From Candidatus Zixiibacteriota bacterium (GTDB lineage: Bacteria > Zixibacteria > MSB-5A5 > DSPP01): a DNA stretch of 35,544 nt. A program made the translations under genes and the position numbers. The stretch spans positions 1 to 35,544 of the forward strand of contig JAKEHY010000007.1 of assembly GCA_022614805.1 (NCBI GenBank). Direction: 5' to 3'. Of this stretch, positions 10,596-26,475 are shown in pieces. Positions within the stretch are counted from its first letter, which is position 1. The number at the start of each line of letters is the position of its first letter. The notes below the pieces were generated by a model. That model worked only from the letters and a program-made list of their open reading frames with translations. It ran no database searches and was not told where the DNA came from.

Positions 10596-10732
10596 ACCCG
10601 GCGTTTTTGCGGCATTAAAATGCCGCCTACGGAGGGGGTTCTCTTCATTCGTAGGCCGGGTTTCCCTGGCCGTCCGTACGGACGACTCGGGCAGGCAACC
10701 CGGCGTTCTTGCGGCATTAAAATGCCGCCTAC
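10596..10732. repeat. REP-like pairs, left flank of the RAYT gene
   Basis: 10596-10630 is a partial unit ending GCGGCATTAAAATGCCGCCTAC. After the 20-nt spacer 10631-10650, 10651-10732 is a full unit: GTAGGCCGGGTTT hairpin arm, then AACCCGGC, then GCGGCATTAAAATGCCGC and CTAC. Each unit is two inverted hairpins with GTAG at each outer foot, as in classical REP pairs. The first hairpin carries a 31-nt type II module at 10665-10695 (CCTGGCCGT-CCGTACGG-ACG, then ACTCGGGCAGG). Confidence 0.85.
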
Positions 10733-10761
10733 GAGTGGGAGCCATTCGATTGGCAAAAAAA

Positions 10762-11217
10762 TCAAGCAATTGGGTCGACCAATTCAGACCGGTGGGCTGA
10801 CGAATACGGATATTCTTCCGGTTCCTTCGATAAACCGGCCGTGACCGGATTATACAGGACGTACTGAACCTTCCTTTGGAAATCCCCCTCGTCCCTTATG
10901 GCGTGTTCATAATATCGCTCCTGCCAAACCGGTCCGGAGGCTTTGAGAGATTGGTTTATCAACCGGGCCGATTTGCCTTTCAGTTTTTTCATAATCCCGG
11001 GAAGGGACAATTCGTTTGGTTTTATAATCAGATGCAAATGGTCAGGCATAATCACGAAGGCATATATTTCACAAGATTGGCATTCGCGCAGCTCCTTTAG
11101 GACCGAAAGTAAAATTTCGGTGAGCGAGCCGTTCAGAAACAGCTCTTGGCGGCCGCGGGTGGTAGTGGTGATGAAATACACCAGCTCTTCTTCAATGATA
11201 TGCTTGAGCCTTGCCAT
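10762..11217 (-). CDS. REP-associated tyrosine transposase (RAYT, TnpA-REP type)
   Basis: 151 residues from the ATG at 11217; earlier in-frame codons are translated repeat sequence. It belongs to the Y1/HUH single-strand transposase superfamily: the metal-binding HUH motif is MPDHLHLI (about residues 55-65), and the catalytic Tyr is expected in WQERYYEHAIRD (about 110-122), followed by the usual YVLYNPVTAGL and YPYSS. Known RAYTs cut single-stranded REP DNA next to GTAG-type tetranucleotides and are thought to spread REP sequences. Here the gene is bracketed within about 35 bases on each side by paired hairpins whose feet are GTAG/CTAC. Length is normal for the family and no frameshift is seen, so the enzyme may be active. 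Confidence 0.92.
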   Translation of the reverse strand: MARLKHIIEEELVYFITTTTRGRQELFLNGSLTEILLSVLKELRECQSCEIYAFVIMPDHLHLIIKPNELSLPGIMKKLKGKSARLINQSLKASGPVWQERYYEHAIRDEGDFQRKVQYVLYNPVTAGLSKEPEEYPYSSAHRSELVDPIA

Positions 11218-11235
11218 TATTATAGAATCCTGCTC

Positions 11236-11390
11236 GTAGGCCGGGTTTCCCTGGCCGTAGCCAGAGGCTACGACTCGGGCAGGCAACCCGGCGTCTTTGC
11301 GGCATTAAAATGCCGCCTACGGAGGGGGTTCTCTTCATTCGTAGGCCGGGTTTCAACCCGGCGTTTTTGCGGCATTAAAATGCCGCCTAC
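11236..11390. repeat. REP-like pairs, right flank of the RAYT gene
   Basis: 11236-11320 is a full GTAGGCCGGG...GCCGCCTAC unit with a 34-nt type II module at 11250-11283. The spacer 11321-11340 is identical to the left-flank spacer (GGAGGGGGTTCTCTTCATTC). 11341-11390 is the same unit without the module (GTAGGCCGGGTTTCAACCC, then GGC, GCGGCATTAAAATGCCGCC, TAC). Left and right flanks are therefore near-copies of one composite array. Confidence 0.88.
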
Positions 11391-11401
11391 GAGATTCTCC
11401 G

Positions 11402-14017
11402 CTATTCTTCTTTCACCCGCAACTCTTCCAAGGCCCGTACCAGGCGGGTGTCCGGAAAACGGGAAAGGCGCTCGAAGTTGAAGCCGATGGCTTCCGGCGC
11501 CACCGGCAGCCGGTATTGCTTGCGGCGGTTGTTTTCGATTTCAAAGCGCCGTCCGAGCACCTTCTCCAATTCCTTCTTCAACCGAAAAACAAAACGCCCC
11601 TGCCCCTCTTTTTTCTCGAAGGCATATATGGAAATCCATCCCTCCGGGGCGGTGAAACGCCCCTTCGCCAGGCAGAAAAGATAGTAAAAAAGCTTGGCCG
11701 GAAGAAAAACGTCCGTTCCGTGGACTTTGGCCAGAAAACGGTTTTTGGCCTCTTCCCCGTCAAGATAAACCGAGTACTCCGGCGGCTTTTCTGGCGGCCG
11801 GACGAAGACGAGCCTCTGCTTCGGCTTCACCCCCAAAAGCCGCGCCTTTTGAAAAACGGCCGTGCCGGTCTCAACGCCGAAAAACTCCACAAGCCTTTCC
11901 TGCCCCAAGGCGGCGGCATCTTCGGCTTCGATAAAACCGAAATCGGAAAGCCGGTGAAACTGGTCCCGAAACAAAAACTCGGCAAAGGCGAAAACCAAAT
12001 TTCGCAGCCGGAAGGGCACTCCGTAGCGGGCCTTGAAAGCCAAGGCATCGAGGCGCTCCTCCCAATCGGACGGCAAAGCCAGAAAACGGGCCAAATCCCG
12101 CGCCGTTTCCAGAACCCACGAAGTCCCCTCCGCCCAGAGAAGCAAATCCCCCGCCCCGGCCCGGTATTTCGCTTCAATTTCCCGCAAGGGAATCTTCGAT
12201 TTCCAGTCCTCGAAAAGGGAAAGAAAAAAGAGGGTGCGGGCCGGAAAGGCGAGCCCGGCGGAGACGGAGGCCTCGGCCGCCTCCTCCCAGTTTCCGGAAG
12301 CGGTGGATACCGGCGCGGCACCAGTTGTGGGCATACGGTGACTCCCTTTCAGGGCGGAAAACCGCCCGGCCGCATCGGAAAGTTCGTCCAAAGAATAAAT
12401 CAAATCGAACAGCCGGTCGGCGGAGAGCTCGGTTGCGGTGCTCAAAAAATCGTAGAGCAGGCAGTAACTTTCCACCGAAAATCCGGAAGAAGCCGCCAGC
12501 TTTCCGAGGGGGGTGGGGAAAAACTTCCCCCGCTGGTTTTTCAAAAAGCCGACCGCTTCCAGTTCCCCCGTAATTTCTGAAAGCCGCGCCCCTTCCAGCC
12601 GGCTTTTCGGTTTTTTGAGATAAGTTTTTGAAATTTCATCGGCAGAGGAAACCGCCCCGGAGCTGACTAAATCCAGAACCAGCTCGAGAGTCAGTTCGGA
12701 GGCCGGCAGTTCCGCCCCCCGCTGCCCCCGCAAAACGTAGCGCTGCCAGAAAAGCTCCTTTTCGAGGGGGGAACGGGCGATTAAGATGGCCTTGCCTTCT
12801 TTTTCGAGTCCGAGCCGACCCGCCCGCCCGGCCATGTTTTCATATTCGATGAGTGAAATCGGCTGGGAAATCCATTCGCCCGAGGCCGGCCCTTTCTCAA
12901 ATTTTTCCGAATCGACGAAAACCGTCCCCGCCGGCAGATTCACCCCCCATGCCAGAGTCGAAGTGGCCGCGACCACGCGGATTTCCCCGGAGCGGAAGGC
13001 CTCCTCCACGGCGCGGCGCAAAGGAAAAAGCAAATCGGCGTGGTGAAAGGCGACTCCCCCTTCCAGAACCCGCCAGAGCCGTTCGGCCGAGTTGGAAAAA
13101 AGTCCGGTTTTGATTTTCCCCTTCGCGTTGGAGGCCGGCGGCAATCCGAGGCGGCCCGCCAGCCGCAAGGACAGTTCCTCGCACTCTTTTTTGCTTTTGC
13201 GGAAAACCAGAATCTGCTCCCCTTCGGCCGCCTTTTTTTCTATCGATTTGAGCCAGAGTTCCTCATCCGAAAGTTGTTCCACCTCCGGCCAGCTCTCCTC
13301 TTCCTCTCCGCTTCCGGCGAAGAGTTTGAGCCGCCCTTCCGCCAAAACCCCGCGCTTGAGCGGAACGGGACGGTGGGTGTCCTCCACGTAGCCGCACAAA
13401 AGCCAGCGGGCCAGTTCGGAAAAGTTGGCGACACCGGCGGAGAGAACCACAAGCTGCGGTTTTTTGGGACTTGTCCCGAGCGAAGTCGAGGGATAGGCGA
13501 GATATTTGAAAAAGATTTTTTCCAGAACTTTTCCGCGTTCGGCATCGAGCAGCAATTGGCCTTCATCGACAACCAAGAGTCCCAAAGTCGAAAGAATGTC
13601 CAATTTGCGCACTAATAGTTGATTCAGTTTTTCGTAGATGACCACCGCCAAATCGAAATTCCCTTCCGCCAGAAGGGAATCGGATTGCGGGTGGTCGCGG
13701 GTGGAGAGCAGAACCCGCACCCCCAAATCGGCGTAGCGTTTTTTGAAAGTCGCAACCTTCTCCTCCGCCAGCGCTTTCAACGGCACGGCAAAAATCGTTT
13801 TTTTCCGTTCCTCGATAGCTTTGAGGAACGCCAGCTCGGCCAGAAAGGTTTTTCCGGCGGAAGGGGGGGCCGAAACCCACAGCCGTCGCCCGGCAAAAAG
13901 CCCCTCTTCCAAAACCACACGGGATTGCAAGGGGAGCAAATTCTCCCCCTGTTCTGTTTTGACCCGCTCAAGGAATTGAGGCAAAAGACCGTAACGACCC
14001 AAATCGGAAAGCTTCAT
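11402..14017 (-). CDS. Ski2-like DExH helicase with C-terminal winged-helix-like region
   Basis: 871 residues. Superfamily 2 motifs in order: Q-like LPLQ (28-31), Walker A APPSAGKT (50-57), PLKAL (79-83), motif II VVDEGQ (149-154, DEGQ in place of DEAH/DExH), motif III SAG (193-195), GVAFHHADL (321-329), motif V TSTLAWGVNLPAG (352-364), motif VI MAGRAGRLG (395-403). This order and the HHADL and WGVNLPA motifs are those of Hel308/Ski2 helicases, which unwind DNA or RNA with 3'-5' polarity. Residues about 765-860 (VFLPAKLFYYLFCLAKG ... IENNRRKQYRLPV) look like the winged helix of OmpR-type regulators, which is not usual for Hel308. A type I repeat module encodes residues 176-183 (PSTSLGTS). The gene stands alone between repeats. 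Its substrate is unknown. Confidence 0.85.
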   Translation of the reverse strand: MKLSDLGRYGLLPQFLERVKTEQGENLLPLQSRVVLEEGLFAGRRLWVSAPPSAGKTFLAELAFLKAIEERKKTIFAVPLKALAEEKVATFKKRYADLGVRVLLSTRDHPQSDSLLAEGNFDLAVVIYEKLNQLLVRKLDILSTLGLLVVDEGQLLLDAERGKVLEKIFFKYLAYPSTSLGTSPKKPQLVVLSAGVANFSELARWLLCGYVEDTHRPVPLKRGVLAEGRLKLFAGSGEEEESWPEVEQLSDEELWLKSIEKKAAEGEQILVFRKSKKECEELSLRLAGRLGLPPASNAKGKIKTGLFSNSAERLWRVLEGGVAFHHADLLFPLRRAVEEAFRSGEIRVVAATSTLAWGVNLPAGTVFVDSEKFEKGPASGEWISQPISLIEYENMAGRAGRLGLEKEGKAILIARSPLEKELFWQRYVLRGQRGAELPASELTLELVLDLVSSGAVSSADEISKTYLKKPKSRLEGARLSEITGELEAVGFLKNQRGKFFPTPLGKLAASSGFSVESYCLLYDFLSTATELSADRLFDLIYSLDELSDAAGRFSALKGSHRMPTTGAAPVSTASGNWEEAAEASVSAGLAFPARTLFFLSLFEDWKSKIPLREIEAKYRAGAGDLLLWAEGTSWVLETARDLARFLALPSDWEERLDALAFKARYGVPFRLRNLVFAFAEFLFRDQFHRLSDFGFIEAEDAAALGQERLVEFFGVETGTAVFQKARLLGVKPKQRLVFVRPPEKPPEYSVYLDGEEAKNRFLAKVHGTDVFLPAKLFYYLFCLAKGRFTAPEGWISIYAFEKKEGQGRFVFRLKKELEKVLGRRFEIENNRRKQYRLPVAPEAIGFNFERLSRFPDTRLVRALEELRVKEE
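13470..13491. repeat. Type I module inside the helicase gene
   Basis: The 22-nt core CTTGTCCCGAGC/GAAGTCGAGG lies within the coding sequence, antisense to the gene, and is read as PSTSLGTS just before the strand carrying motif III. The frame is kept. The same core occurs between genes and in two surface-protein genes. Confidence 0.8.
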
Positions 14018-14051
14018 ACTGGTTGGAATATAAAAAATTCGTTTGAAAAAT

Positions 14052-14112
14052 GTAGGGACGAGGTTTCCTCGCCCGGGTGTGGGGGGACAGGGCGGGGAAA
14101 CCCCGCCCGTAC
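14052..14112. repeat. GTAGGG hairpin pair upstream of the helicase
   Basis: GTAGGGACGAGGTTTCCTCG and GGCGGGGAAACCCCGCC hairpins ending CCGTAC, 35 bases before the helicase ATG. A diverged member of the GTAGGGGC family. Confidence 0.65.
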
Positions 14113-14123
14113 AATTTCACAAA

Positions 14124-14200
14124 AAAACAGGGGCGGGTTTCCCTCGACTTTCCTCGTCTGCGCTCGGAACAAGTCGCTCGGGATAAACCAACCCGCTCGG
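14124..14200 (-). terminator. Terminator hairpin with a doubled type I module in its loop
   Basis: Read on the minus strand: GAGCGGGTTGG, a long insert, AAACCCGCCCCTG, then TTTTTTT. The insert (14141-14189) is a type I module (TTTATCCCGAGCGA ... AAAGTCGAGG) with an inner 22-nt copy at 14152-14173. The same terminator stem without insert is at 16563-16596. It follows the 14221-16263 gene. Confidence 0.6.
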
Positions 14201-14220
14201 GCCAACCCTTCCAGATTGAT

Positions 14221-16263
14221 TTAATCCGCGGTTTCTGTAAACCTCATCCAGTTGGTCCCGTTGTAAACACGCAAACCCGGGGTATTATCGGTTTGATAGA
14301 CGGCCATCCCGGCGACAGGAGAGGCAATGGCGTCTCTTTGCGCTTTCGTCATCCGAGACAGCACAAATCCTTTGGTGGTGGATGATAGCTCTAAAATGCT
14401 GGATGCTCCGGGACTCGCCGTCCCGATGCCAACGGCACCTTGCACTAAGAGTCCGGCGTATGGAGCTGTACTCACGCCAGCGTAGGAGGGTCCGATAGCA
14501 ACCCCGCCGTAAACATCCAGCTCGTTTACTGGTGCCGTCGTTCCTATGCCAACCTGCGTTTGCACCAAAAGTCCGCTTGATGGAGCCGTATACGTACCGG
14601 CATAACCATATCCGATAACGGCCCCACCTTGAACATCCAGTTCATTTTTCGGGTTTATCGCTGTTCCGATGCCCACACGGCCGTCATTTCGAACCAGAAA
14701 TCCAGGGGTTCCGACGCCCCAGTTCACACCCAACGCGGCTTCGAGCGGATTCGCGCCGACAGTTGATATACGCAGACCCGCGCCGCTATTGTTTTCGATA
14801 CTAGCGGCATAAGTGCCCGCGGCCGATTTTTGCACGTGCAGCGGATGTGCCGGGACTGTCGTGCCAATGCCAACATTGCCCTGTACCAAAATTCCGTTTA
14901 ATGGAGCCGTAACCGCTCCGGCATATCCGTAGCCGATAACGGCTCCGCCTTTAACATCCAGCACGTTTTGTGGGTTGGTCGTCCCGATGCCGATATTGCC
15001 GGCAACATCGTCTATATACATTCGGGTTGTTCCGCCGGTTTGCAGTCTCAAGGGGCTCAAGCTGGACACGTTGCTTGCAAAGAGAGTATCGGTCACTCTA
15101 ACGTTGCCGGAAAAATTCCCCGCATACCCTTCTGCCGTAGGCGCCGTCGCATAAACTCCATATTTTGTGCCGGTTCCGGTAGTGTCGGTAAAGAAATAAC
15201 CCCCGTACACCGGCCCGGAGATGCCAAAACTGCTACTCCACACCCCGTAGTGCGGCCCGGTGCCGGTTCCGCCGGTGGATACGTTAAAGAATCCGCCATA
15301 AGCATCGCCGGTCGAGCTGTTGTCCGCTTCACCGTAAACGCCGTAAGCCGGATTACCCGAAGCGCTGGAGGCATTCCCTCTAACTCCTGACTTTATTCCC
15401 GTTCCAGCTGAACTGGCGGTGAAAATTCCACCAAAGGCGCTCCCGGTTGAAGAGTTGGAGACAATACCGCTGACACCTTGTTGCGAAGCGGCGCTCGATA
15501 CAGAGTTCAGAACTCCAAGTTTGGCCGTAGGTGTTGTCGTTCCGATGCCGACGTCGCCGTCCGCATCCACGCTTAAAGCCGGATTGGGGTCCAAATCCGA
15601 AGCCGCCAGCGAACTGTGGGGATGCGCGCTGTCCGCCAGCCGCACCCACTGCGCCGCGTGCGCGTAATAGGCGGCCCCTTGATTGTGGGCGTGGGCAAAC
15701 ATACCGTGATACGTGGTGGGGGCTGGGAATGTCGAGACGTCATCATAGTGAAAGCGAATCTTGCTGCTCATTCCGGTGGCGTCTATGGTCCCGTTAACGG
15801 CAAGATTGCTTTGAATGCTGGTGTTGCCGGAAATAGTTCCGCCGGCGGCTCCATCTATCGTTCCTACGCGATAGGCATATCCGACCGATGCCAATCGTTG
15901 CCTGGGAATCATCTCTGGGTCGGTATCTACTTTAATCCCCAGATACCGAACCGTGTCCTCAAATACCGAATCGGGAATCGGATTAGAAGAACCCAGAAGC
16001 ACATTGAATCGGCCTTCATCGGCGATGGTTATCGAAAGGGTCTCCGTCCAAAGCGCGGTGCCCCCGAGGGGATCGTCATAAATCGTAAAGGTTACGTCCA
16101 GCATATCGACCGCCGGTGGATTTCCAGCGGCATCTTTCAATACCCCCTGAAAGTTGATAAGCTGTGGAACGGCCCCCTCGACCGCGCTCGGGACAAGTCC
16201 AAGGACAGTTGCTGCGAGGAATAAAAACATCCCCAATCCGAAAAGAATGATGATGCGTTTCAT
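14221..16263 (-). CDS. Surface-family protein with VGIGTT and pentapeptide-like repeats
   Basis: 680 residues; AGGAG lies 7 bases before the ATG. A signal peptide is followed by VPSAVEG (encoded by a type I module, 16176-16197), then the constant family domain VPQLINFQGVLKDAAGNPP ... DPEMIPRQRLASVGYAYRVG (about 33-135). The middle carries Gly/Ser-rich repeats (YGVYGEAD, GVSGIVSN, GGFFNVSTG). From about 415 there are six VGIGTT blocks, several paired with near-identical lines such as LDVQGGAVIGYGYAG. It ends in SSILELSSTTKGFVLSRMTKAQRDAI and NGTNWMRF, a tail typical of tail-fibre-like proteins without an S74 chaperone. The role is inferred as a fibrous, exported surface protein. Adhesion is possible but not shown. 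Confidence 0.85.
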   Translation of the reverse strand: MKRIIILFGLGMFLFLAATVLGLVPSAVEGAVPQLINFQGVLKDAAGNPPAVDMLDVTFTIYDDPLGGTALWTETLSITIADEGRFNVLLGSSNPIPDSVFEDTVRYLGIKVDTDPEMIPRQRLASVGYAYRVGTIDGAAGGTISGNTSIQSNLAVNGTIDATGMSSKIRFHYDDVSTFPAPTTYHGMFAHAHNQGAAYYAHAAQWVRLADSAHPHSSLAASDLDPNPALSVDADGDVGIGTTTPTAKLGVLNSVSSAASQQGVSGIVSNSSTGSAFGGIFTASSAGTGIKSGVRGNASSASGNPAYGVYGEADNSSTGDAYGGFFNVSTGGTGTGPHYGVWSSSFGISGPVYGGYFFTDTTGTGTKYGVYATAPTAEGYAGNFSGNVRVTDTLFASNVSSLSPLRLQTGGTTRMYIDDVAGNIGIGTTNPQNVLDVKGGAVIGYGYAGAVTAPLNGILVQGNVGIGTTVPAHPLHVQKSAAGTYAASIENNSGAGLRISTVGANPLEAALGVNWGVGTPGFLVRNDGRVGIGTAINPKNELDVQGGAVIGYGYAGTYTAPSSGLLVQTQVGIGTTAPVNELDVYGGVAIGPSYAGVSTAPYAGLLVQGAVGIGTASPGASSILELSSTTKGFVLSRMTKAQRDAIASPVAGMAVYQTDNTPGLRVYNGTNWMRFTETAD
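16176..16197. repeat. Type I module at the signal-peptide junction
   Basis: The 22-nt core in frame encodes LVPSAVEG between the hydrophobic signal core and the mature domain of the 14221-16263 protein. The family member at 1-1158 has no such segment at the same place. Confidence 0.8.
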
Positions 16264-16320
16264 TTTTCGCTCCTTTCTTTAGGCGAATGCCATTCGCCCC
16301 TACGTTTTTTTACGTGTTAT

Positions 16321-16368
16321 TTAACGAAAGAACACAGCCAGCGACTTTAAAACGTTTAACCGTTTCAT
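16321..16368 (-). pseudogene. Decayed 5' end of a third surface-family gene
   Basis: ATG at 16368 with GGGAGG upstream encodes MKRLNVLKSLAVFFR and stops. The gene at 16614-18953 starts MKRLNVFNSLAVFF. The homology continues upstream to about 16497, covering leader and promoter, and matches 18954-19080. This is the promoter and first 14 codons of a family member whose body is gone. The repeat GCGAATGCCATTCGC at 16281-16300 lies beside the break. It may still be transcribed into the 14221-16263 gene. Confidence 0.75.
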
Positions 16369-16458
16369 CGCTACCTCCCTGTTTGTCCCCGCGCTGTGGC
16401 GGAGAACTAAAGGTTTTTTGTAACTACAGCCCGCCCACTCGACTTTGTGGTAAGGTTA

Positions 16459-16488
16459 AACATACCCCTTCTGAAAAGCAGTTGTCAA
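16459..16488 (-). promoter_or_regulatory. Promoter of the decayed gene, possibly driving 14221-16263
   Basis: On the minus strand TTGACA (16488-16483), 18 bases, TATGTT (16464-16459). It has the same spacing as the promoter of the 16614-18953 gene (TTGACA-N18-TATTTT at 19070-19041). Conservation of both hexamers and spacer between the two copies supports the call. Confidence 0.65.
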
Positions 16489-16497
16489 GCGAGGAAT

Positions 16498-16560
16498 CCC
16501 CCTTTCCCGTTTCGGGCTTGTCCCAAGGATATTCGAGGGGAAGGGGGCAAGGGGGTTAGG
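16498..16560. repeat. CCTTCCCG hairpin with type I module
   Basis: CCCTTTCCCGTTTCGGG, a 22-nt type I module at 16517-16538 (CTTGTCCCAAGG...TTCGAGG), then GGAAGGGGGCAAGGGGGTTA. Compare the uninterrupted copy at 19081-19120. Confidence 0.75.
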
Positions 16561-16562
16561 TT

Positions 16563-16596
16563 AAAAAGACAGGGGCGGGTTACCAACCCGCCCCTG
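16563..16596 (-). terminator. Rho-independent terminator of the S74 surface gene
   Basis: On the minus strand CAGGGGCGGGTT, loop GGT, AACCCGCCCCTG, then TCTTTTT, 18 bases after the stop codon at 16614. A 12-bp perfect stem. Confidence 0.88.
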
Positions 16597-16613
16597 CAAT
16601 CAAACGTTAATTC

Positions 16614-18953
16614 CTATTTTCTGACTGCTTGCAGCTTTTCCAACGCCTCGATCCGGGCTTTGAGTTCGGCAACTTCCGCCGTCCGCTCTTCCAGCGCCTG
16701 CACGGCTATCATCAAAATGCCGGCCATATCCCCGGAGTTAAGCGTGGTCTCCGTCCCAATTTTCCCCACGCCGTCATTTCCAAAGGCGGCAAAGAAATCC
16801 TGCGCCACCGGCCCGTAGTGGCGGAACTGTTGGGGGTCGTGCCCCTTGTAGTTCCAGCTGGCGAGGTTAAATCCCCGGAGTTTTCTTAGCACCTCTCCTC
16901 CGTCCACCGGTCGGAAGTTTTCCTTTTGGGCCCGGTCAGAAACGACCGTGAGACCGACTTGGCATTCGAGAACCGTGACTGAACTGTTGCCCAGGCGGAT
17001 TTTGTTGCTGGCGTTCACTATCGCCCCGTTGCCGATGGCGGTGGCGTTGGTCAGGTTGACCAACGAAACATTCGCACCGGCTCCGATGGCGGTGTTGTTG
17101 CTGCCGACGGTGTTGGTTAGGAGCGCACCCTCCCCGCTGGCCGTGTTGCCGCCACCGGTGGTGTTGTTTGTGAGCGCATCGACCCCGCTGGCGGTGTTGC
17201 CGCTGCCGGTGGTGTTGCTTTGGAGTGCGCTCGCCCCGCTGGCGCTGTTGAGGTTACCGGTGGTGTTGCTTTGGAGTGCGCTCGCCCCGCTGGCGGTGTT
17301 GAAGTTTCCGGTGGTGTTGAACTGGAGCGCGCCGGTCCCGCTGGCCGTGTTGTTGCTGCTGACTGTCGTCAGGTTGCCGGCATTGCGGCCGATGAAGGTA
17401 TTGTCCGTGCCGAAATTGTGGATGAAAGGTACGCCCCCCTTCAGAATATTGCCCGCCGACGCCGTGGAATTTTCAAGATTGAAATTCCCCCCGGCAACAT
17501 CCAGCTTGCTGGCCGGGCTCACTGTTCCGATGCCGACATTATCCCCCAAGGTAGTAAGCCGGACCACGCCACCGCCGTCCGTCCAACCACCACCACTTGA
17601 TACCGCCGTAGTTTGCAAAGTGCCATCGGGAAATTTGATGCCATCTACACCGGCTGTTCCGCCGATGTGGAGTTTTGCAGTCGGACTTTCCGTCCCGATA
17701 CCGACGTTGCCGGTGGCGTCGTCAATATGCATCCGGGTCGTGCCGGCAGGGGCTTGAAAGGAAAGCGGGCTGTTAGAGGAAAGGTTGCTGGTAAACACGG
17801 TGTCGTCAGCGCCGACCTTGATGTTACCATCCGTTTCAACGAGCATGACGGCGCTGTTCCCCAGGCGGATTTTGTTGCTGGCGTCCACTACCGCCCCGCT
17901 GCCGATGGCCGTGGCGTTGGTCAGGTCGCCCGCCGAAACATCTGCTTGGTATCCTATCGCGGTGTTGTTGCTGCCGGTGGTGTTGCTGAAGAGCGCATTG
18001 GTCCCGACGGCGGTGTTGTCGTTGCCGGTGGTGTTGCTGAAGAGCGTTTGATGCCCGCTGGCGGTATGGTTGTTGCCGGTGGTGTTGCTGAAGAGTGCCC
18101 GGTACCCGTTGGCGGTGTTGTTGAAGGCGGTGGTGTTACTTTGGAGCGCAAAGGCCCCGCTGGCGGTGTTGAAGTTGCCGGTGGTGTTGCTTACGAGCGC
18201 ATAGGCCCCGCTGGCGGTGTTGTTGATGCCGGTGGTGTTGTTCCGGAGCGCACTGTACCCGCCGGCAGTGTTTTCGAAGCCGGTGTTGACCCAGAGCGCA
18301 TAAGCCCCGCTGGCGGTATTCCAGGCGCCAATGGTGTTGCCTGAGAGCGCATAGGCCCCATTGGCGGTATTGTTGAAGCCGATAGTGTTGAATAGGAGCG
18401 CACCGGCCCCGCTGGCGGTGTTGTTGAAGCCGATGGTGTTGCTTTGGAGCGCCGACGTCCCAATGGCAGTGTTAAAGCCGTCACCGGTTGTCGTCAGGTT
18501 GCCGGCATTGCGGCCGACGAAGGTATTGTCCGTGCCGAAATTGGGGATGAAATGTGCGACTCGGAGAGAATAGGCCACCGACACCAACTGCTGCCTCGGC
18601 GTCATCTCCGGGTCGGCACTGACTTTAGTCCCCAACCAGCGGTTCGCGTTATTAAAAGCGGAATCGGGAACCGGGTTCAGCGAACCCAAAAGAACTGTGA
18701 AAAGCCCGCTGGTGGTAGTTACAGAAGTTGTTTCTGCCCACTGAACAGCTCCTCCGACCGGGGCATCGTAGATGGTGAAAACGACGGAATACGAGCCGTC
18801 CGCCACCGGATTGCCGGAACCATCCCGCAGAACCCCCTGAAAGTTGATGAGCTGGGGAACGCTTCCCTCGACTGCGCTCGGGATAAACCCCGATACCATC
18901 ATTGAAAAAACAAAAAAAACTGCCAGCGAGTTGAAAACGTTTAACCGTTTCAT
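16614..18953 (-). CDS. YadA-head-like surface protein with S74 chaperone domain
   Basis: 779 residues; GGGAGG precedes the ATG. A signal peptide is followed by IPSAVEG (type I module, 18866-18887) and the family constant domain (VPQLINFQGVLRDGSGNPV ... DPEMTPRQQLVSVAYSLRV). Then two blocks of 17-residue repeats of the form NTASGx.AL..NTTGxx, about nine units near residues 155-315 and about five near 525-605, resembling YadA/Hia head repeats. VGIGTESP and VGIGTVSP links lie between them. Residues about 671-760 are an intramolecular chaperone/peptidase S74 domain (SDRAQKENFRPVDGGEVLRK, HYGPVAQDFF) with the Ser and Lys of the self-cleavage site. A coiled coil ends the chain (EERTAEVAELKARIEALEK). 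S74 domains drive trimer folding and then cut themselves off, so a trimeric fibre is expected. It is the only one of the four paralogs here with a visible S74 domain. Confidence 0.88.
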   Translation of the reverse strand: MKRLNVFNSLAVFFVFSMMVSGFIPSAVEGSVPQLINFQGVLRDGSGNPVADGSYSVVFTIYDAPVGGAVQWAETTSVTTTSGLFTVLLGSLNPVPDSAFNNANRWLGTKVSADPEMTPRQQLVSVAYSLRVAHFIPNFGTDNTFVGRNAGNLTTTGDGFNTAIGTSALQSNTIGFNNTASGAGALLFNTIGFNNTANGAYALSGNTIGAWNTASGAYALWVNTGFENTAGGYSALRNNTTGINNTASGAYALVSNTTGNFNTASGAFALQSNTTAFNNTANGYRALFSNTTGNNHTASGHQTLFSNTTGNDNTAVGTNALFSNTTGSNNTAIGYQADVSAGDLTNATAIGSGAVVDASNKIRLGNSAVMLVETDGNIKVGADDTVFTSNLSSNSPLSFQAPAGTTRMHIDDATGNVGIGTESPTAKLHIGGTAGVDGIKFPDGTLQTTAVSSGGGWTDGGGVVRLTTLGDNVGIGTVSPASKLDVAGGNFNLENSTASAGNILKGGVPFIHNFGTDNTFIGRNAGNLTTVSSNNTASGTGALQFNTTGNFNTASGASALQSNTTGNLNSASGASALQSNTTGSGNTASGVDALTNNTTGGGNTASGEGALLTNTVGSNNTAIGAGANVSLVNLTNATAIGNGAIVNASNKIRLGNSSVTVLECQVGLTVVSDRAQKENFRPVDGGEVLRKLRGFNLASWNYKGHDPQQFRHYGPVAQDFFAAFGNDGVGKIGTETTLNSGDMAGILMIAVQALEERTAEVAELKARIEALEKLQAVRK
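17000..17390. repeat. 51-bp coding repeats, distal head block
   Basis: About five 51-bp units (17 residues, N-T-A-S-G core) within the S74 surface gene. Neighbouring units are strongly similar at DNA level (GGTGGTGTTGCTTTGGAG recurs), so copy number may change by slippage or recombination. Confidence 0.7.
17950..18495. repeat. 51-bp coding repeats, proximal head block
   Basis: About nine units of the same 17-residue repeat; one unit near residue 200 is 16 residues. The DNA is marked by GCCGGTGGTGTTGCTGAAG in several copies. Confidence 0.7.
18866..18887. repeat. Type I module at the signal-peptide junction
   Basis: A core variant (TTTATCCCGAGCGCAGTCG, then AGG) in frame encodes FIPSAVEG at the same position as in the 14221-16263 protein. 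Confidence 0.8.
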
Positions 18954-19040: not shown

Positions 19041-19070
19041 AAAATACCCCCTTCGTTAAGAAATTGTCAA
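19041..19070 (-). promoter_or_regulatory. Promoter of the S74 surface gene
   Basis: On the minus strand TTGACA (19070-19065), 18 bases, TATTTT (19046-19041). The predicted leader of about 80 bases holds a hairpin CCCCGCC-AAA-GGTGGGG before GGGAGG. The whole region is duplicated at 16369-16497. Confidence 0.7.
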
Positions 19071-19080
19071 GAGGGGAACC

Positions 19081-19120
19081 CCCCCTTCCCGCTTCGGGAA
19101 GGGGGTCAGGGGGTTAGGTT
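19081..19120. repeat. Uninterrupted CCTTCCCG hairpin
   Basis: CCTTCCCGCTTCGGGAAGG followed by GGGTCAGGGGGTTAGG. This is the 'empty' form of the repeats at 2967-3027 and 16498-16560. Confidence 0.8.
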
Positions 19121-19241
19121 GCTTTTCGATCTCTCAATGACTCAATGATTAAATGATTCAATCGCTCCACTCCCCTTGACTTGCCAAACCCACAATGCCA
19201 TCTTAGTGCTACGTAACTTAACGGAAAACCCGGGAGGCCGT

Positions 19242-20510: not shown

Positions 20511-20527
20511 AAATCTTTTTTTTCTTT

Positions 20528-20554
20528 GTAGGGGCAGGGTCTCCCCGCCCCTAC
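20528..20554. repeat. GTAGGGGC hairpin between convergent genes
   Basis: GTAGGGGCAGGGTCTCCCCG then CCCCTAC. It fills the 46-base gap between two 3' ends and may act as a terminator for both strands; a T-run (20517-20526) lies on the plus-strand upstream side, so it is not a classical one. Confidence 0.6.
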
Positions 20555-20556
20555 GA

Positions 20557-22899
20557 TTACGGGCAGGAAAAGGGGTGGTCCAGAAAAACCGCAAACAATT
20601 CGGTGACTACATCTGCCCCGGAAAGACGGCTGTCGCAGTTCAAATCGGTGTAGCAGAAGTGGCAGCTTCCAAAACCCCGGAAGGTGCAGTTGACCAATAA
20701 AATTACGTCGGTCAGCGAAACAAACTTGTCGCCGGTTAAATCCCCTTTTTGAAACGGGCAGACGGCTTGATTGGACAGGTTGGCCAGAATCGAAACCGTG
20801 TAGGAGCCTTCGTTGGCGGCGGCCAAGTCCAAATCTCCGTCCCCGTCCAAGTCGGCAGAACAAATGGAACGGGGCCGCCGGCCGACGCCGTACGTTCCAA
20901 AATCCGGAAGGAACGTGCCGTCCCCGCCGTTGCGCAAAATCACGATGCTGTTGGAGGCATAGCTCCCCCCCGCCAGGTCCAAGTCTCCATCGCCATCCAA
21001 ATCGGCGGCAACCAGCGAGAAGATGAGCGCCTCCATGGGATAGCCGGCCGGAGAAGCGAAACTTCCGTCCCCGTTATTTTTCAGGATAGAGACCCAGTAT
21101 CCGGCGGGGCCGCCCCCCGCAGCGGCCAAATCCAAATCACCGTCCCCGTCCAAATCGGCGGCCAAAACGGAAAAAACCAGAAAACCGAGGTCGAAATCAT
21201 TCCGGTCGGTCAAATCTCCGTCCCCATCGTTTCGGTAAAAAGTGATAAACGAGCTGGCCGCCGCCGTCAAATCCAAGCTCCCGTCGTTGTCGAAGTCGAG
21301 AACGGCAAGGGCCCGCGGGTTGGGGGGGAGGGAATAGTTTACCCGCTCGGCAAAAGTTCCGTCCCCGTTGTTTTTGTAAATCGAAACGCTGTTTTCGATG
21401 TAATTGGCCGCGGCCAAATCGAAGTCCCGGTCTCCTTCGATATCGAAGGCGGCCAAAGCGGAGGGGTCATTGCCGGCCGGGTAGTCCACTTTAGGGAGAA
21501 AACCACCGGCACCGTCCGCCAAGAGAACCGAGATGCTGTTGTTTGGATACAGGGAATTGGCCGTCGCCAAATCCAAAGCTCCGTCGGCATTGAAATCGGA
21601 TGCCAAAAGAGCGGAAGAGCCGTCGCCGGAAGGATAATCGCTCCGGCTAAAACCGGAGCCGCCTTCGTTCTTCAATATCGAGATGCTGTTGCTCCCACGG
21701 TTCGCCACGGCCAAATCGAAATCGCCGTCGGTATCCAAATCGACGCCGATGACTGCGTGCGGCACGGAGCCAGTTGAAACGGAGGGGACGGAAAAATCCC
21801 CCTCTCCCCTGTTTTTCAGAACCGTAATGGTGCCGTCACCGAGGTTGGAGACAATCAAGTCGAAGTCGCCGTCCCCGTCCAAATCGCAGGCGGCACCGCC
21901 CCAGGGGCCGGCTCCGGCGGGATATTCCACTATGGAGTCAAATTGACCCTCTCCGTTATTCTTTAAGACTCCCGCGCTGTTCCCCCGCCAGTTGGAGGTG
22001 GCCAAATCCAAATCCCCGTCGCCATCCAAATCGGAAGCGACCACGTAAGCCGGATATTCCCCCGGCGTGTAGTCTGTTTTGGAGCCGAAAGCCCCGAACC
22101 CGTCGTTTTTCAGAACCGAAATTTTGTTGACCTCCTCGTTGGTCGTGGCCAAATCCAAATCACCGTCCCCGTCCAAATCGGCGGCGATGACCGAACAGCA
22201 GTCCGGGCCGGTGGCGTAATTTGTGACGGAGTCAAACCCGGCCAGACTGTCATTCATCAAAACCGAAACGTCACCGCTCCCCTGATTGGCGGTTGTCAAA
22301 TCGACATCCCCGTCCTTGTCGAAATCCCCCGCGCAGATGGCGTAGGGCTGCTGTCCGACCGGAAAATCGGCTTTGGGCTGGAAACTTTCGTTGCTGTCGT
22401 TCAGGAAAACCGAAATCGTGTGGCTGTAAGCATTGGCCGTGGCCAAATCGACGTCTCCATCCCCGTCCAAATCCGCGGCCGAGACCGCCTCCGGGTGGTC
22501 ACCGGTGGGATAGGAGGCCGACAAAACAAAAGTTCCGTCCCCCTGGTTGATTAAAATCGCCAGCGTGTTGCCGGTATGGTTCGCAACCGCCAAATCGATG
22601 GCCGTATCTCCATTCAAATCAGCCGCCTCCACAAACGCCGGCCCGCTGCCGACGGCATAAACGGTTTTCGAACCGAAGGTCCCATCCCCGGCGTTGAGGA
22701 AAACCGAGACGTTGCTTTTCCCGTCCACGGCGGCCAAGTCAAAGTCGCCATCCCCATCCAAATCGGAAGCGGTGACCGAATAAGACGGCCCCCCGACGAG
22801 GTAAGCCCGCCAGGTGTCAAAGAGCGGCTCGGAAACCAAAGGAGCGGCCGCCAAAAAAAGATAGCTCAAAATTGATAATACGATGCCTTTGCCCGCCAT
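20557..22899 (-). CDS. Secreted FG-GAP/VCBS protein with 14 repeats and dockerin-like tail
   Basis: 780 residues from the ATG at 22899, chosen because GGAGA precedes it and a signal peptide (GIVLSILSYLFLAAAPLVS) follows at once. 14 repeats of about 48 residues carry the calcium loop DLDGDGDxDLA (a few weaker, such as DIEGDRDFDL and DFNADGALDL). Each is followed by NSISVLKNxGDGTF. Fourteen units would make two seven-bladed propellers. The C-terminus is dockerin-like (KGDLTGDKFVSLTDVILLVN and TDLNCDSRLSGADVV). No enzyme domain is present; a binding or surface-structural role is inferred. It is a close paralog of the gene at 27991, whose mature start LFDSW matches LFDTW here. Confidence 0.85.
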   Translation of the reverse strand: MAGKGIVLSILSYLFLAAAPLVSEPLFDTWRAYLVGGPSYSVTASDLDGDGDFDLAAVDGKSNVSVFLNAGDGTFGSKTVYAVGSGPAFVEAADLNGDTAIDLAVANHTGNTLAILINQGDGTFVLSASYPTGDHPEAVSAADLDGDGDVDLATANAYSHTISVFLNDSNESFQPKADFPVGQQPYAICAGDFDKDGDVDLTTANQGSGDVSVLMNDSLAGFDSVTNYATGPDCCSVIAADLDGDGDLDLATTNEEVNKISVLKNDGFGAFGSKTDYTPGEYPAYVVASDLDGDGDLDLATSNWRGNSAGVLKNNGEGQFDSIVEYPAGAGPWGGAACDLDGDGDFDLIVSNLGDGTITVLKNRGEGDFSVPSVSTGSVPHAVIGVDLDTDGDFDLAVANRGSNSISILKNEGGSGFSRSDYPSGDGSSALLASDFNADGALDLATANSLYPNNSISVLLADGAGGFLPKVDYPAGNDPSALAAFDIEGDRDFDLAAANYIENSVSIYKNNGDGTFAERVNYSLPPNPRALAVLDFDNDGSLDLTAAASSFITFYRNDGDGDLTDRNDFDLGFLVFSVLAADLDGDGDLDLAAAGGGPAGYWVSILKNNGDGSFASPAGYPMEALIFSLVAADLDGDGDLDLAGGSYASNSIVILRNGGDGTFLPDFGTYGVGRRPRSICSADLDGDGDLDLAAANEGSYTVSILANLSNQAVCPFQKGDLTGDKFVSLTDVILLVNCTFRGFGSCHFCYTDLNCDSRLSGADVVTELFAVFLDHPFSCP

Positions 22900-23101
22900 C
22901 AGCGTTCTCTCCGGAGAAACTTTTCCCGACACAAACCCACGAACATCAAATATACGTCAATTCCCGTGCCAAAACCTCTTCCAGCGCCGCTGATTTTAAT
23001 TTTATGGATTCCAAAACCTTAAAGTGGTTGAAACGATTGGTTCAAAGGTTCTTGTCAGCCAATTTCCGCCGTTTGGGAGATAAAACCGGCGAAAATTCAG
23101 C

Positions 23102-23131
23102 TTGAAATACCTCTGGCAAATCGACTTAAAT
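23102..23131 (+). promoter_or_regulatory. Possible promoter of the gltX cluster
   Basis: TTGAAA, 18 bases, TTAAAT. The predicted transcript start is near 23138, about 10 bases before the GTG at 23149, which has no ribosome site. If both calls are right, the first gene is translated from an almost leaderless message. 22900-23101 holds nothing else recognisable. Confidence 0.4.
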
Positions 23132-23148
23132 ATGTTAGATTATCGGGT

Positions 23149-23670
23149 GTGAGACGAACCGCAGTAGCTATACTGGGGATACTGGTTTTAGCTCTGGCCT
23201 GCGCCGAAAAAGAGGCGGCCGAGCGGATTTATCCCAAAAACTACCGCGAGATTTTAGCCGCCTCGGAAGTTATAGAAATCCACGGCGAAACGGCCGATTC
23301 GACCAAGTTGGAAGGGGACAAATACTTGGTCGACAATCTTGATTATATCCTGGCCCAAAACAAGCGGGTGGCCGTCAATTTCGGCGCCTACTGGTGCAAG
23401 GACTGCTACAAGTTCGACCCGTACTTCCGGGAAGCCGCCGCCCGGCCGGAATACGCCGGGGTGGTTTTCGCCCACGCCGAAGTGGACGGAACCAGAGGGA
23501 ACGAAAACTTCCGCAACCGTTTTGCCCTCCCCGGCGTGCCGGTGGTGATGCTGTTTGAAAACGGGCAGCCAATCGAAAAAAACGGCCAGCGGGGCATCCT
23601 CTTCGGCGAAAAAGGGGACAAGACCCGCGCGGATTTGGAAAATCTGCTGAAAACGTTCTTCGGGAGTTAA
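23149..23670 (+). CDS. Thioredoxin-fold lipoprotein
   Basis: 173 residues from a GTG start. The signal peptide ends LALACAEKE, with the lipidated Cys at 18. Residues about 70-165 form a thioredoxin fold: VAVNFGAYWCKDCYKFDPYF carries the CxxC (C-K-D-C), and a cis-Pro strand follows (LPGVPVVMLFENGQ). It resembles DsbD-gamma/thioredoxin_7 proteins that reduce or oxidise periplasmic disulfides. It is the first of four tightly packed plus-strand genes: the next starts 1 base after its stop, and the last two junctions overlap by 4 bases. Its link to gltX is probably only operon sharing. Confidence 0.82.
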   Translation: MRRTAVAILGILVLALACAEKEAAERIYPKNYREILAASEVIEIHGETADSTKLEGDKYLVDNLDYILAQNKRVAVNFGAYWCKDCYKFDPYFREAAARPEYAGVVFAHAEVDGTRGNENFRNRFALPGVPVVMLFENGQPIEKNGQRGILFGEKGDKTRADLENLLKTFFGS

Positions 23671-23671
23671 G

Positions 23672-24247
23672 ATGATTGTTCCTTTGATATGTTTATGGTT
23701 TCCCGTCGCGGGGGCAATTCATGAATTGCCCGAACAACTGGCGCAAATGGCTCCCGCCCCATCCGTCACCGATTCCGGATTTGTTTTCACCCAGCCGGTT
23801 TTCAAAAGCATTCCCCCGCAGGTTTTCATCTTCAAGCCGGGGGCCGGGCCGTATGACAGCGTGGCCGGGGAATTCGACGAACTGATAGCCTTTATGGCGG
23901 AGAAGAGAATGCCGGGCCAGCTGGCGGCGGTTTTTTACGACGACCCGGCGCGGGCGCCGGCCGAATCGCTGCGCTGGGAGGCGGGGGTGATTACCAACCA
24001 CCCCCCCCCGCACACCGAGCCCTACACCCAGAAAATCATTTCGGCACGAAAAGCCGCCAGCCTGATTGTTGACGGCACACCGGGGCAGAATCACGAGCGT
24101 TATGCCGCGATGTTGGGCTTCATCCGCCAGCGCCGCTATCTTTTCAAACCGCCGGCAATGGAGGTTTTAATCCAACCGGCAACTGAAAACGCCGACCCGA
24201 AAACCGAAATTCTGCTGCCGGTTCAACTGAAAAGGAGGGAAAAATGA
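23672..24247 (+). CDS. GyrI-like domain protein with N-terminal signal
   Basis: 191 residues. The body (VFKSIPPQVFIFKPGAGPYD, then ELIAFMAEKRMPGQLAAVFYDDPARAP, ending EVLIQPATENADPKTEILLPVQL) matches the GyrI-like/AraC effector-binding fold, with the typical GPY, YxDDP and final E.LxPV elements. This fold binds small molecules. The first 16 residues (MIVPLICLWFPVAGAI) are hydrophobic and could export it, which would be unusual for a fold best known in cytoplasmic regulators. A later start would remove them, but no later ATG has a ribosome site. It overlaps the next gene by 4 bases (ATGA). Confidence 0.75.
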   Translation: MIVPLICLWFPVAGAIHELPEQLAQMAPAPSVTDSGFVFTQPVFKSIPPQVFIFKPGAGPYDSVAGEFDELIAFMAEKRMPGQLAAVFYDDPARAPAESLRWEAGVITNHPPPHTEPYTQKIISARKAASLIVDGTPGQNHERYAAMLGFIRQRRYLFKPPAMEVLIQPATENADPKTEILLPVQLKRREK

Positions 24248-24597
24248 AATGGGAATTGAAACGAATCGATTTGGCCTCGCTCGCCAAAATGGCCCTTTTT
24301 TTGAACGCCATTCTGGGTTTTTTAATCGGCATTCCCATCGGCTTTTTTATTTATCTGGGGAGCATGCTGCCGGGGATGGAGGAAAACCCGATTCCGCAGG
24401 GGCTGGCTTTCTTATTCCCGTTTATCACGATGTTTGCCGTGGCCGTAATCAAAACCATCGCCTGGCTCATCGGCGGGCTTTTGTATAATCTTTTGGGCGG
24501 ACTTTTCGGCGGCATCGAGCTGGAACTGAAGGAAGTTCGTCCGCCGGTTTCCCCCTCTTCGGCACCCCCCGGAAGCGTCGAACTCCCCTCTCTATGA
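24244..24597 (+). CDS. DUF3566-like membrane protein
   Basis: 117 residues. The pattern KWELKRIDLASLAKMALFL, two hydrophobic segments (about 18-40 and 54-85), YNLLGGLFGGIELEL after the second, and a Pro/Ser-rich tail fit short DUF3566-type proteins. Function is unknown. It overlaps both neighbours by 4 bases, so translation is probably coupled to gltX. Confidence 0.7.
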   Translation: MKWELKRIDLASLAKMALFLNAILGFLIGIPIGFFIYLGSMLPGMEENPIPQGLAFLFPFITMFAVAVIKTIAWLIGGLLYNLLGGLFGGIELELKEVRPPVSPSSAPPGSVELPSL

Positions 24598-26051
24598 GCG
24601 CCGTGCGCGTCCGCATCGCCCCCTCCCCGTCCGGCTTTCTGCACGTCGGCACCGCGAGGACGGCGGTCTACAATTTCCTTTTCGCCCGGCACCACGGTGG
24701 AAAGTTCATCCTGCGCATCGAGGACACCGACACCGCCCGCAGCTCGGAGGAGATGGTGCAGGTGATTCTGGATGGGATGAAGTGGCTCGGCCTGAACTGG
24801 GATGAAGGGCCGATATTTCAATCCAGGCGCAATGAGTTGTACAAGGAATGGGGGAAAAAACTGGCCGAAAGTGGGCATTCCTATTGGTGTTTCTGCACGC
24901 CGGAGGAGTTGGAGGAACGCCGTAAGGCGGCCATCTCCCAAAAAATCGCCTGGAAATACGACCGCAAGTGTCTAAAGCTTTCACAGGAGGAAATTGAGGC
25001 GAACAAAAAAGCAGGAAAGCCGGCCGCCCTGCGGCTGAAAGTGCCGGAGGGGAAAACGGGCTTCACCGATTTGGTCGGCGGGGAACTGGAGCGGGAAAAC
25101 GCCGACATCGAGGATATGGTCTGTTTGCGCTCGGACGGCCGCCCCACCTACAACTTCGCCGCCGTGGTGGATGATTACGATATGAAAATCTCCCACGTCA
25201 TCCGCGGCAACGACCACATCTCCAACACCTTCAAGCAGATTCTCCTCTACCGGGCCTTGAATCTGCCCGTGCCGGAATTCGCCCATCTCCCCTTGATTTT
25301 GGGGGCCGACAAAAAGAAAGTCTCCAAGCGGCAGGGCGCGGTGGCGGTAACCGACTATCGGGACACCGGCTTTTTGCCGGAGACGATGCTGAACTTTCTG
25401 GCCCTTCTGGGCTGGTCGCCGGGGGACGGGCGGGAAATTATGTCGCGCGAGGAACTCATACAGGCTTTTTCGCTGGCGCGGGTGGGCGCCGCCAATCCGG
25501 TCTTCGACCTTCAAAAACTGGAATGGATGAACGGTGAATACATTCGCAGGCTTCCGGATGAGGAACTGCTGGCGCGGGCCTTCCCTTTTTTGGAGAAAGC
25601 TTCGCTCGTAAAACCGGAAGAGAAGAAGTCCAAGCGGGATTATTTTTTGAGGGTCCTTCCGCTGCTCAAGGAGCGCTGCCGGCTCTTGTCCGATTTCGCC
25701 GAAATGGGGGATTATTTCTTCAAAGAGGAATTCGACTACGACCCCAAAGGGGCCGAAAAGCAGTTTGCCGACCCCCAAACCGCCTCCCGGCTCGAAAAGG
25801 TGGCCGCAGCCTGGAAAGCGGTCGAGCCTTTTTCGAAGGAGAAAACCGAAGAGGCGCTGCGGCTGCTGGCGGAAAAAGAGGGGGAAAAAGCGGCCGCCTT
25901 CATTCATCCCATCCGCCTGGCGATAACCGGAAAAACGATGGGCCCGGCCCTCTTCGACCTCGTGGAGGTTTTGGGAAGAAAGCGGGTTTTGGCCCGCCTT
26001 TCGCGGGCCGTGGAATACCTCAAAAGCCGCACGCCGGCGGCGAAAACCTGA
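24594..26051 (+). CDS. gltX: Glutamyl-tRNA synthetase
   Basis: 485 residues, normal for bacterial GluRS. Class I motifs: HIGH-type PSPSGFLHVGTART (about 10-23) and KMSKS-type KKVSKRQG (about 241-248). The catalytic core also shows LRIEDTD and FNFAAVVDDY-like NFAAVVDDYDMKISHVIRG. A zinc-site remnant WCFC ... YDRKC is present near 97-123. It ligates glutamate to tRNA-Glu. In bacteria without GlnRS the enzyme also charges tRNA-Gln with glutamate, later amidated by GatCAB. A tRNA-Gln gene lies 238 bases downstream, but whether this enzyme is non-discriminating cannot be read from the sequence. The ATG overlaps the preceding stop (ATGA). Confidence 0.96.
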   Translation: MSAVRVRIAPSPSGFLHVGTARTAVYNFLFARHHGGKFILRIEDTDTARSSEEMVQVILDGMKWLGLNWDEGPIFQSRRNELYKEWGKKLAESGHSYWCFCTPEELEERRKAAISQKIAWKYDRKCLKLSQEEIEANKKAGKPAALRLKVPEGKTGFTDLVGGELERENADIEDMVCLRSDGRPTYNFAAVVDDYDMKISHVIRGNDHISNTFKQILLYRALNLPVPEFAHLPLILGADKKKVSKRQGAVAVTDYRDTGFLPETMLNFLALLGWSPGDGREIMSREELIQAFSLARVGAANPVFDLQKLEWMNGEYIRRLPDEELLARAFPFLEKASLVKPEEKKSKRDYFLRVLPLLKERCRLLSDFAEMGDYFFKEEFDYDPKGAEKQFADPQTASRLEKVAAAWKAVEPFSKEKTEEALRLLAEKEGEKAAAFIHPIRLAITGKTMGPALFDLVEVLGRKRVLARLSRAVEYLKSRTPAAKT

Positions 26052-26090
26052 CAAATCCCTCCCCCGCTTGACAACTTTCCGCCGAATCTT

Positions 26091-26233
26091 GTTGCGTCAG
26101 GAGTTGCTCCTGACGCTCGTATATCCCTTACTGTCATTCCGAGCCCCGTCCTTCATGGGGCGAGGAATCTGGGCGGCGTGGTGGGTGCAACCCCTCCATC
26201 TCCATCCGGATTCCTCACTTCGTTCGGAATGAC
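26091..26233. repeat. GTTG-type hairpin and GTCATTCCGAG-type paired repeat
   Basis: 26091-26115 is GTTGCGTCAGGAGTTGCTCC then TGACGC. 26133-26233 runs from GTCATTCCGAG to CGGAATGAC and contains the CGAGGAATC/GGATTCCTC arms and an inner CCCCGTC...GGGGCG hairpin. This is a widespread intergenic repeat whose spurious translation reads CHSERSEE. Together they fill the gap between gltX and the tRNA gene. Confidence 0.75.
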
Positions 26234-26250
26234 AATAAGAGAGGTGAACC

Positions 26251-26278
26251 TTGACAACTTCTCGCCGGGTTTTAACTT
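26251..26278 (+). promoter_or_regulatory. Promoter of the tRNA-Gln gene
   Basis: TTGACA, 16 bases, TAACTT, with a predicted start near 26285, 5 bases before the mature tRNA. The ten bases TTGACAACTT also occur at 26068-26077, just before the repeats. Confidence 0.6.
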
Positions 26279-26289
26279 GCAATCCCCAC

Positions 26290-26363
26290 TGGGAGATCGT
26301 CCAACGGTAGGACATGTGGCTCTGGACCACAGAATCGGGGTTCGAATCCCTGTCTCCCAGCCA
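26290..26363 (+). tRNA. tRNA-Gln (anticodon CUG)
   Basis: Acceptor TGGGAGA / TCTCCCA, D-arm GTCC...GGAC, anticodon stem TGTGG / CCACA with loop CTCTGGA (anticodon CTG), T-arm CGGGG-TTCGAAT-CCCTG, discriminator G and an encoded CCA. All stems pair and the short variable loop is class I. It stands alone and is flanked by palindromic repeats on both sides. Confidence 0.96.
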
Positions 26364-26388
26364 ATTCTTCCCCCCGACACCAAGTACC

Positions 26389-26475
26389 GTTGCGTCAGGA
26401 GTTACTCCTGACGCGCCTGTTGGGAGCCTGCCCGAGATGAGCTCGGGGCTCGGCCAGGGTAACTCCCGACACAAC
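26389..26475. repeat. GTTG...CAAC hairpin pair with type II module
   Basis: GTTGCGTCAGGAGTTACTCC-TGACGC is intact. The second hairpin (TTGGGAG / ACTCCCGAC, then ACAAC) is split at its apex by a 32-nt type II module at 26427-26458 (CCTGCCCGAG...GGCCAGG). The uninterrupted counterpart is 3106-3158, in reverse orientation. No gene from 26476 to 26699. Confidence 0.85.

Follow-up and report, generated by a model that had tools for sequence, protein, structure and literature searches.

Introduction

How tiny palindromes multiply is an old question, posed by REPs, by the palindromes of organelles and by GC clusters. In the mitochondria and plastids of Volvox carteri short palindromes, 14-79 nt long in the plastid, are presumed to be selfish and are often inserted into one another (PMC2670323). 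REPs of T. roseum, A. variabilis and H. neapolitanus are nested in palindromes and are also found inside genes (PMC3733652), and a number of insertion sequences, including IS1397, IS621 and ISRm22, target REPs, with ISRm22 entering at the axis of palindromy (PMC1525189). The GC clusters of yeast mitochondria, such as GC42, are tiny, mobile GC-rich hairpins that have been exchanged between species (PMC4478555).

Here we describe a bacterial example that offers a fixed unit, exact pairs of filled and empty sites and dozens of copies. The unit, at 15 bp among the smallest apparently mobile pieces of DNA seen in bacteria, recurs as insertions in some genomes of one little-known phylum, mainly at hairpin tips and sometimes in frame within genes. 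Like it, the Volvox palindromes are short, nested and without a known mover, but they are organellar, and a fixed 15-bp unit with exact filled and empty sites, targeting of T^C and in-frame insertion into conserved proteins are not known to be described for them (PMC2670323). The nested REPs share with the unit the insertion of one palindrome into another; these inserts are, however, single or dimeric REPs that bear a GTAG or CGTC tag and enter one palindrome type each (PMC3733652), whereas the 15-bp unit is untagged and enters many unrelated hairpins, REPs among them. Insertion into REPs is likewise common to the unit and the REP-targeting insertion sequences, but the latter are full elements with a transposase and usually use one REP type (PMC1525189). 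GC42 clusters, which are likewise minute, mobile and of hairpin form and for which a mover is not known, differ in their length of ∼42 bp and in the AG duplication at their flanks, and targeting of hairpin apices is not known to be described for them (PMC4478555). Finally, Rickettsia palindromic elements resemble the unit in that they insert within protein-coding genes (as cited in PMC3733652). What is new with respect to these systems is the combination of a fixed 15-bp size, exact filled and empty pairs, many unrelated hairpin targets and occurrence in two bacterial families; an earlier description is possible. The Rickettsia elements are longer than the present unit.

Results and Discussion

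Modules in the Window and the Hairpins They Open

The window, a stretch of 35,544 nt, is contig C4 of a 38-contig, 2.55-Mb assembly that we refer to as G000. A sequence-only reading had proposed that three modules with shared ends and different palindromic cores split two unrelated hairpins at their loops, adding one extra base each time. The three modules are found where that reading had placed them and in the same orientations, CCTGGCC-GTCCGTACGGACGACTC-GGGCAGG at 10665-10695 and CCTGGCC-GTAGCCAGAGGCTACGACTC-GGGCAGG at 11250-11283, both on the plus strand, and CCTGGCC-GAGCCCCGAGCTCATCTC-GGGCAGG at 26427-26458 on the minus strand. The pattern CCTGGCC-N(4-34)-CTCGGGCAGG matches three times in the window and not once in 100 dinucleotide-preserving shuffles, and the cores are more self-complementary than shuffled ones, with a mean stem of 4.9 bp as against 3.2 bp. 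Each filled site does carry one base more than the module, the inserted unit being the module plus one C, located at 10664 or 10696 in the first case.

The two plus-strand modules both open the hairpin GCCGGGTTTC^AACCCGGC, giving filled REPs of the form GCCGGGTT..AACCCGGC at 10655-10704, where the loop is 34 nt rather than 2 nt, and at 11240-11292, where it is 37 nt (both plus strand). An empty copy of this REP, GCCGGGTTTCAACCCGGC, is present at 11345-11362 (plus strand), bearing out the claim of a module-free hairpin near 11341-11390. The minus-strand module opens GTCGGGAGTTAC^TCCC(A)AC, and the filled GTGTCGGGAGTTAC/TCCCAAC hairpin extends over 26419-26472 on that strand. Its empty form, GTCGGGAGTTACTCCCGAC, lies at 3111-3129 (plus strand); of the segment 3106-3158 that had been taken for the uninterrupted hairpin only this part corresponds, the remainder being a second, separate hairpin. 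A further empty REP, GGGTTTGATTAATCAAACCC, is located at 2916-2935 (plus strand), and on contigs C11, C15, C17, C19 and C25 this hairpin holds a 15-bp short form of the module. The GTAG/CGTC foot tetranucleotide of REPs and REPINs is absent from the module, which lies inside GTAG-tagged hairpins.

Two large minus-strand genes of the window, at 20557-22932 and 27991-30720, contain many DNA repeats of ∼147 nt and probably encode repeat-domain secreted proteins, and a 51-nt (17-residue) tandem repeat array is seen at 16965-18528 within a long minus-strand open reading frame.

A 15-bp Unit with a Short and a Long Form

It had been assumed that the module itself moves. The moving unit is instead a palindrome of 15 bp, YCCTGGCCGGRCAGG (mostly CCCTGGCCGGGCAGG), that sits between T and C, and the modules are a longer form of it with an extra core. 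The short form CCTGGCCGGGCAGG, that is, the module minus its core, is present in 10 exact copies in G000; when 0.75 Mb of this genome are searched for TC-CCTGGCCGGGCAGG-C and one mismatch is allowed, 16 copies are obtained, compared with 0 for each of two control strings. A genome-wide search for the long form, CCTGGCC…CTCGGGCAGG, as the sequence-only reading had suggested, returns 13 exact copies in the 2.55 Mb and 0 for the reversed control, and many members of the family turn out to be of the core-less 15-bp kind. In the long form the ends are those of the short form, but GCC and GGG are separated by another 17-20 bp, for an inserted length of 32-35 bp. Its cores are variable and self-complementary with CTC at the end, and both arms change from copy to copy. 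Nesting of palindrome within palindrome occurs in the family itself, the short unit being found inside a long one twice (C16 and C19), in each case immediately after the CTC of the long form.

Copies from a second genome, G010, which belongs to another family, bear on the identity of the extra base. Among these copies the base preceding CCTGG co-varies with the third base of GGR, the two being positions 1 and 11 of the element (C-G 40, T-A 7, T-G 1). A subfamily, TCCTGGCCGGACAGG, in which two complementary positions are changed relative to the main form, was noted at L265, L274, L354, L358 and L364, and at L364 one such A-type copy is inverted within a main-form, G-type copy. The A-type copies look like a single subfamily. 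The co-variation may reflect one ancestral double change, and as a sign of pairing between bases 1 and 11 it is suggestive only. Such co-variation would arise from base pairing between target and element, or from an extra base that is itself the start of the element. The sequences suggest the second: removal of the T/A form from the TCGGGAAT hairpin leaves TCCA, a loop that empty copies of this hairpin do have, and a clean result is likewise obtained when the copy nested at L364 is taken out. The alternative, an extra base that belongs to the target, is less likely, as the A-type copies and the empty TCCA loop fit an element with an initial Y, a reading for which the support is one decisive site and one nested copy. 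In view of these two clean removals YCCTGGCCGGRCAGG is taken here as the unit and T^C as its insertion site.

Filled and Empty Sites

Pairs of filled and empty hairpins, a comparison that had been proposed along with the modules, differ by exactly 15 bases for the short form and 32-35 bases for the long form, the 15-bp differences being read from the assemblies of G000 and G010. In G000 five copies of the REP GGGTTTGATNAATCAAACCC are filled, all at an identical position (GGGTTTGATNAATC^AAACCC), and hold CCTGGCCGGGCAGGC or a version that differs by a single base, with 15 extra bases (the copy on C11 has one base beyond the 15); the remaining copies are empty. Six hairpin families of G010 follow the same arithmetic, with added lengths of 15 or 30: the loop of CGCAACCT..AGGTTGCG is 2 nt in 6 empty and 17 nt in 4 filled copies, that of GTAAACCT and that of GTCAAGCT 2 or 17 nt, that of GGGAGCCC 5 or 20 nt, that of TCGGGAAT 4 or 19 nt, and that of GGGAGACC 5, 20 or 35 nt, the last a nested double. 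Tandem units were also observed, three in one hairpin loop of G010:C15 (L042, L264) and two in G013:C10 (L174).

It could be argued that nothing moves, and that filled REPs are loop variants which gene conversion or the transposition of REPs has spread along with their stems. Some REP stems do recur identically filled, for example GGGTTTGATTAATC, and a number of the repeated contexts may have come about by copying of a hairpin already filled, not by fresh insertion. However, the same 15 bases recur in two genomes in numerous stems that are not related to each other, and also in coding genes, within the long module itself and in tandem arrays, and the idea, to which we give hardly any credence, is already largely refuted.

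The filled and empty pairs also bear on the possibility that the 15-mer is the remnant of a MITE or an excision scar, in which the two terminal inverted repeats of some larger DNA transposon are fused with hardly anything left between them, more of these ends being kept in the long form. CCTGGCC and GGGCAGG do form an imperfect inverted repeat, and the long form has the look of two related ends joined. Yet nearly every short site measures exactly 15, which ragged scars would not, and filled minus empty equals 15 bp, leaving no target-site duplication, or one of 1 bp at most, in place of the 2 bp or more of a MITE. Moreover, no such pair of ends flanks a gene in the sequence examined, and the parent would itself need a preference for hairpin apices. 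We therefore regard an origin of this sort as improbable.

Preference for Hairpin Tips and T^C

In order to score the target, the empty site was rebuilt by removal of the unit and the longest stem with its apex at the cut was recorded, with a threshold of at least 7 bp; T^C dinucleotides drawn at random from the same sequence served as the null. In G010 stems that reach the threshold are obtained for 34 of 49 copies (69%) as against 5.9% for the null (p=6e-29), and in G000 for 11 of 25 (44%) against 4.8% (p=1e-8). Since repeated hairpin types are not fully independent we also give figures for distinct sites, for which the enrichment persists, with 14/26 in G010 (5.9% for the null, p=6e-11) and 5/15 in G000 (4.8%, p=5e-4). 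The target has a sequence component as well, albeit a loose one, with T^C at the insertion point in 19/25 and 36/49 copies. The earlier proposal of a second-order element that enters hairpin loops thus stands as far as the filled and empty pairs in many unrelated hairpins and the apex enrichment in two genomes are concerned, but loops are neither the whole target nor an obligatory one. Some 6 long copies in G000 adjoin CCTCCCC/CCTTCCC hairpins at their 5' foot, outside the loops, and a sizeable minority of sites, that in the gene for ribosomal protein L22 included, is without hairpin context. Hairpin tips are strongly preferred, not required.

A different explanation of these numbers is that insertion is random at T^C and that hairpins are enriched through survival, intergenic repeats tolerating inserts. 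Most copies are in fact intergenic, and some of those in coding sequence are in frame or near protein ends, as survival would have it. When only intergenic [ACT]TC sites are used for comparison, however, odds ratios of ∼9-17 are still obtained; the crude ORF mask mislabels some intergenic sites as coding in this comparison, and the genome-wide T^C null is independent of the mask. In addition, the cuts fall on the apex or close to it and are not spread over the repeat. We consider survival as the source of the enrichment distinctly unlikely, more so than the MITE origin above.

Orientation of the unit relative to local GC skew is 15/33 and 19/40, with no strand bias at the modest power of these counts, and the lagging-strand-template bias of IS200/IS605 elements is accordingly not seen; targeting of the lagging strand was rejected on these grounds. 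IS200/IS605 elements go in on the 3' side of a short, fixed target by guide-target base pairing and do not duplicate it; for the unit the T^C target is loose, duplication amounts to 0 or at most 1 bp, and bases 1 and 11 co-vary as described above, with A-type copies that look like one subfamily.

Insertions within Genes

Because the unit is 15 bp long and free of stop codons in all frames it can write five-residue inserts into proteins. In ribosomal protein L22 of G000 the short unit adds five in-frame codons, PARPG, near the end of the protein, an insert that the L22 gene of G001, a genome of the same genus (83% identical), does not have. A second protein of G000 has gained five in-frame codons, LAGQA, in its apparent signal peptide. 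In G010 in-frame copies are found in two transposase genes, in one of them directly ahead of a conserved TDNG motif and in the other as an insertion common to three copies of the transposase.

Distribution among Genomes

We surveyed 132 genomes of the class, which amount to the whole phylum as sampled. Exact matches to the T-unit-C string TCCCTGGCCGGGCAGGC number 10 in G000 and 49 in G010, with one each in G001, G004, G013, G047 and G057 and zero in the rest of the 132; the reversed string gives zero matches across all of them. The sequence itself was read over ∼1.2 Mb in G000 and over 0.73 Mb in G010, and the remainder was searched by pattern.

Viral contigs (L194-L202) contain nine exact matches to the TCCCTGGCCGGGCAGGC 17-mer and none to the reversed string. 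Spread by viruses was considered and not accepted, as four of the nine are one gene and the others resemble ordinary coding sequence; the viral matches are probably due to chance.

What Moves the Unit

Taking these results together we think it rather probable that the modules are members of a family of mobile palindromes, very small and non-autonomous, in which a 15-bp unit is placed into T^C by an enzyme that acts in trans on hairpins. The basic unit 5'-YCCTGGCCGGRCAGG-3' would enter between T and C, strongly favouring a T^C located at the apex of a hairpin or immediately 3' of it, and the window copies would be a longer version with a variable self-complementary core between GCC and GGG. A trans-acting enzyme would copy the unit into transiently single-stranded DNA or extruded hairpins, in a reaction that could be HUH/Y1-like or another structure-sensitive strand transfer. 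As both strands are hit equally, extruded cruciforms are likelier than the lagging-strand template. If hairpin tips are the true target then each insertion marks DNA that was once single-stranded or cruciform in the cell. In a more specific version, which we put forward tentatively, the 15-nt DNA would be the complete substrate, joined by a structure-sensitive enzyme to T^C at extruded hairpin tips, with the complementarity of bases 1 and 11 playing a part in recognition and horizontal transfer between families of one phylum accounting for the distribution. Over the ∼1.2 Mb and 0.73 Mb read in G000 and G010, respectively, neither an enzyme nor an autonomous partner was found, and a search there for an autonomous element with both ends gave nothing convincing, the pairs found resembling ordinary coding 7-8-mers.

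The window contains an obvious candidate for a REP mobiliser, a RAYT-like Y1 transposase gene (PF01797, 151 aa) at 10762-11217 on the minus strand, placed between the two filled REPs. According to a further explanation this RAYT (TnpA-REP), or its paralogue on C25 (51% identical), mobilises the module as a loop-nested REP. TnpA-REP cuts single-stranded hairpin DNA and its cleavage site can be selected through complementarity with the GTAG bases (PMC8266576). The module is, however, without GTAG and its insertion shows no strand bias. Among the Y1 genes whose flanks were examined, only the window gene is bounded by modules, and there the flanking REPs are a common target. Y1 genes are present in both G000 and G010, but the Y1 protein of G010 that was aligned, one of three Y1 hits there, is only ∼27% identical to the window RAYT in a genome with 49 copies of the unit, and we have for this reason rejected the window RAYT as our main reading; its involvement strikes us as unlikely, about on a par with the MITE origin. 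A search of genome contigs with the window RAYT protein returned distant relatives only, 28-36% identical. The entire REP-RAYT-REP block (10567-11402) is absent from G001, where, by BLAST coordinates, the flanks align ∼100 bp apart.

Another Y1 transposase gene, in G000:C26:12640-13400 (L164), is bounded on its two sides by directly oriented copies of another hairpin repeat, GTGGCGCACATTGGTTTT.GTAATGTGCG and CATTCGGGGCCACCG, that is without GTAG.

A second nested family was encountered as well, a palindrome of ∼24 bp, CTTGTCCCGAGCGNAGTCGAGGGA, that is seen in the loops of the hairpins CCGACACT, CCTCGACT, CCTCCCCT and CCCTTCCC, which are empty elsewhere. It is located in the window at 2967-3011 and in G000 at L146:2907, L151:7239 and 9838, L155:7920 and L166:13478, and nesting is therefore not confined to the 15-bp module.
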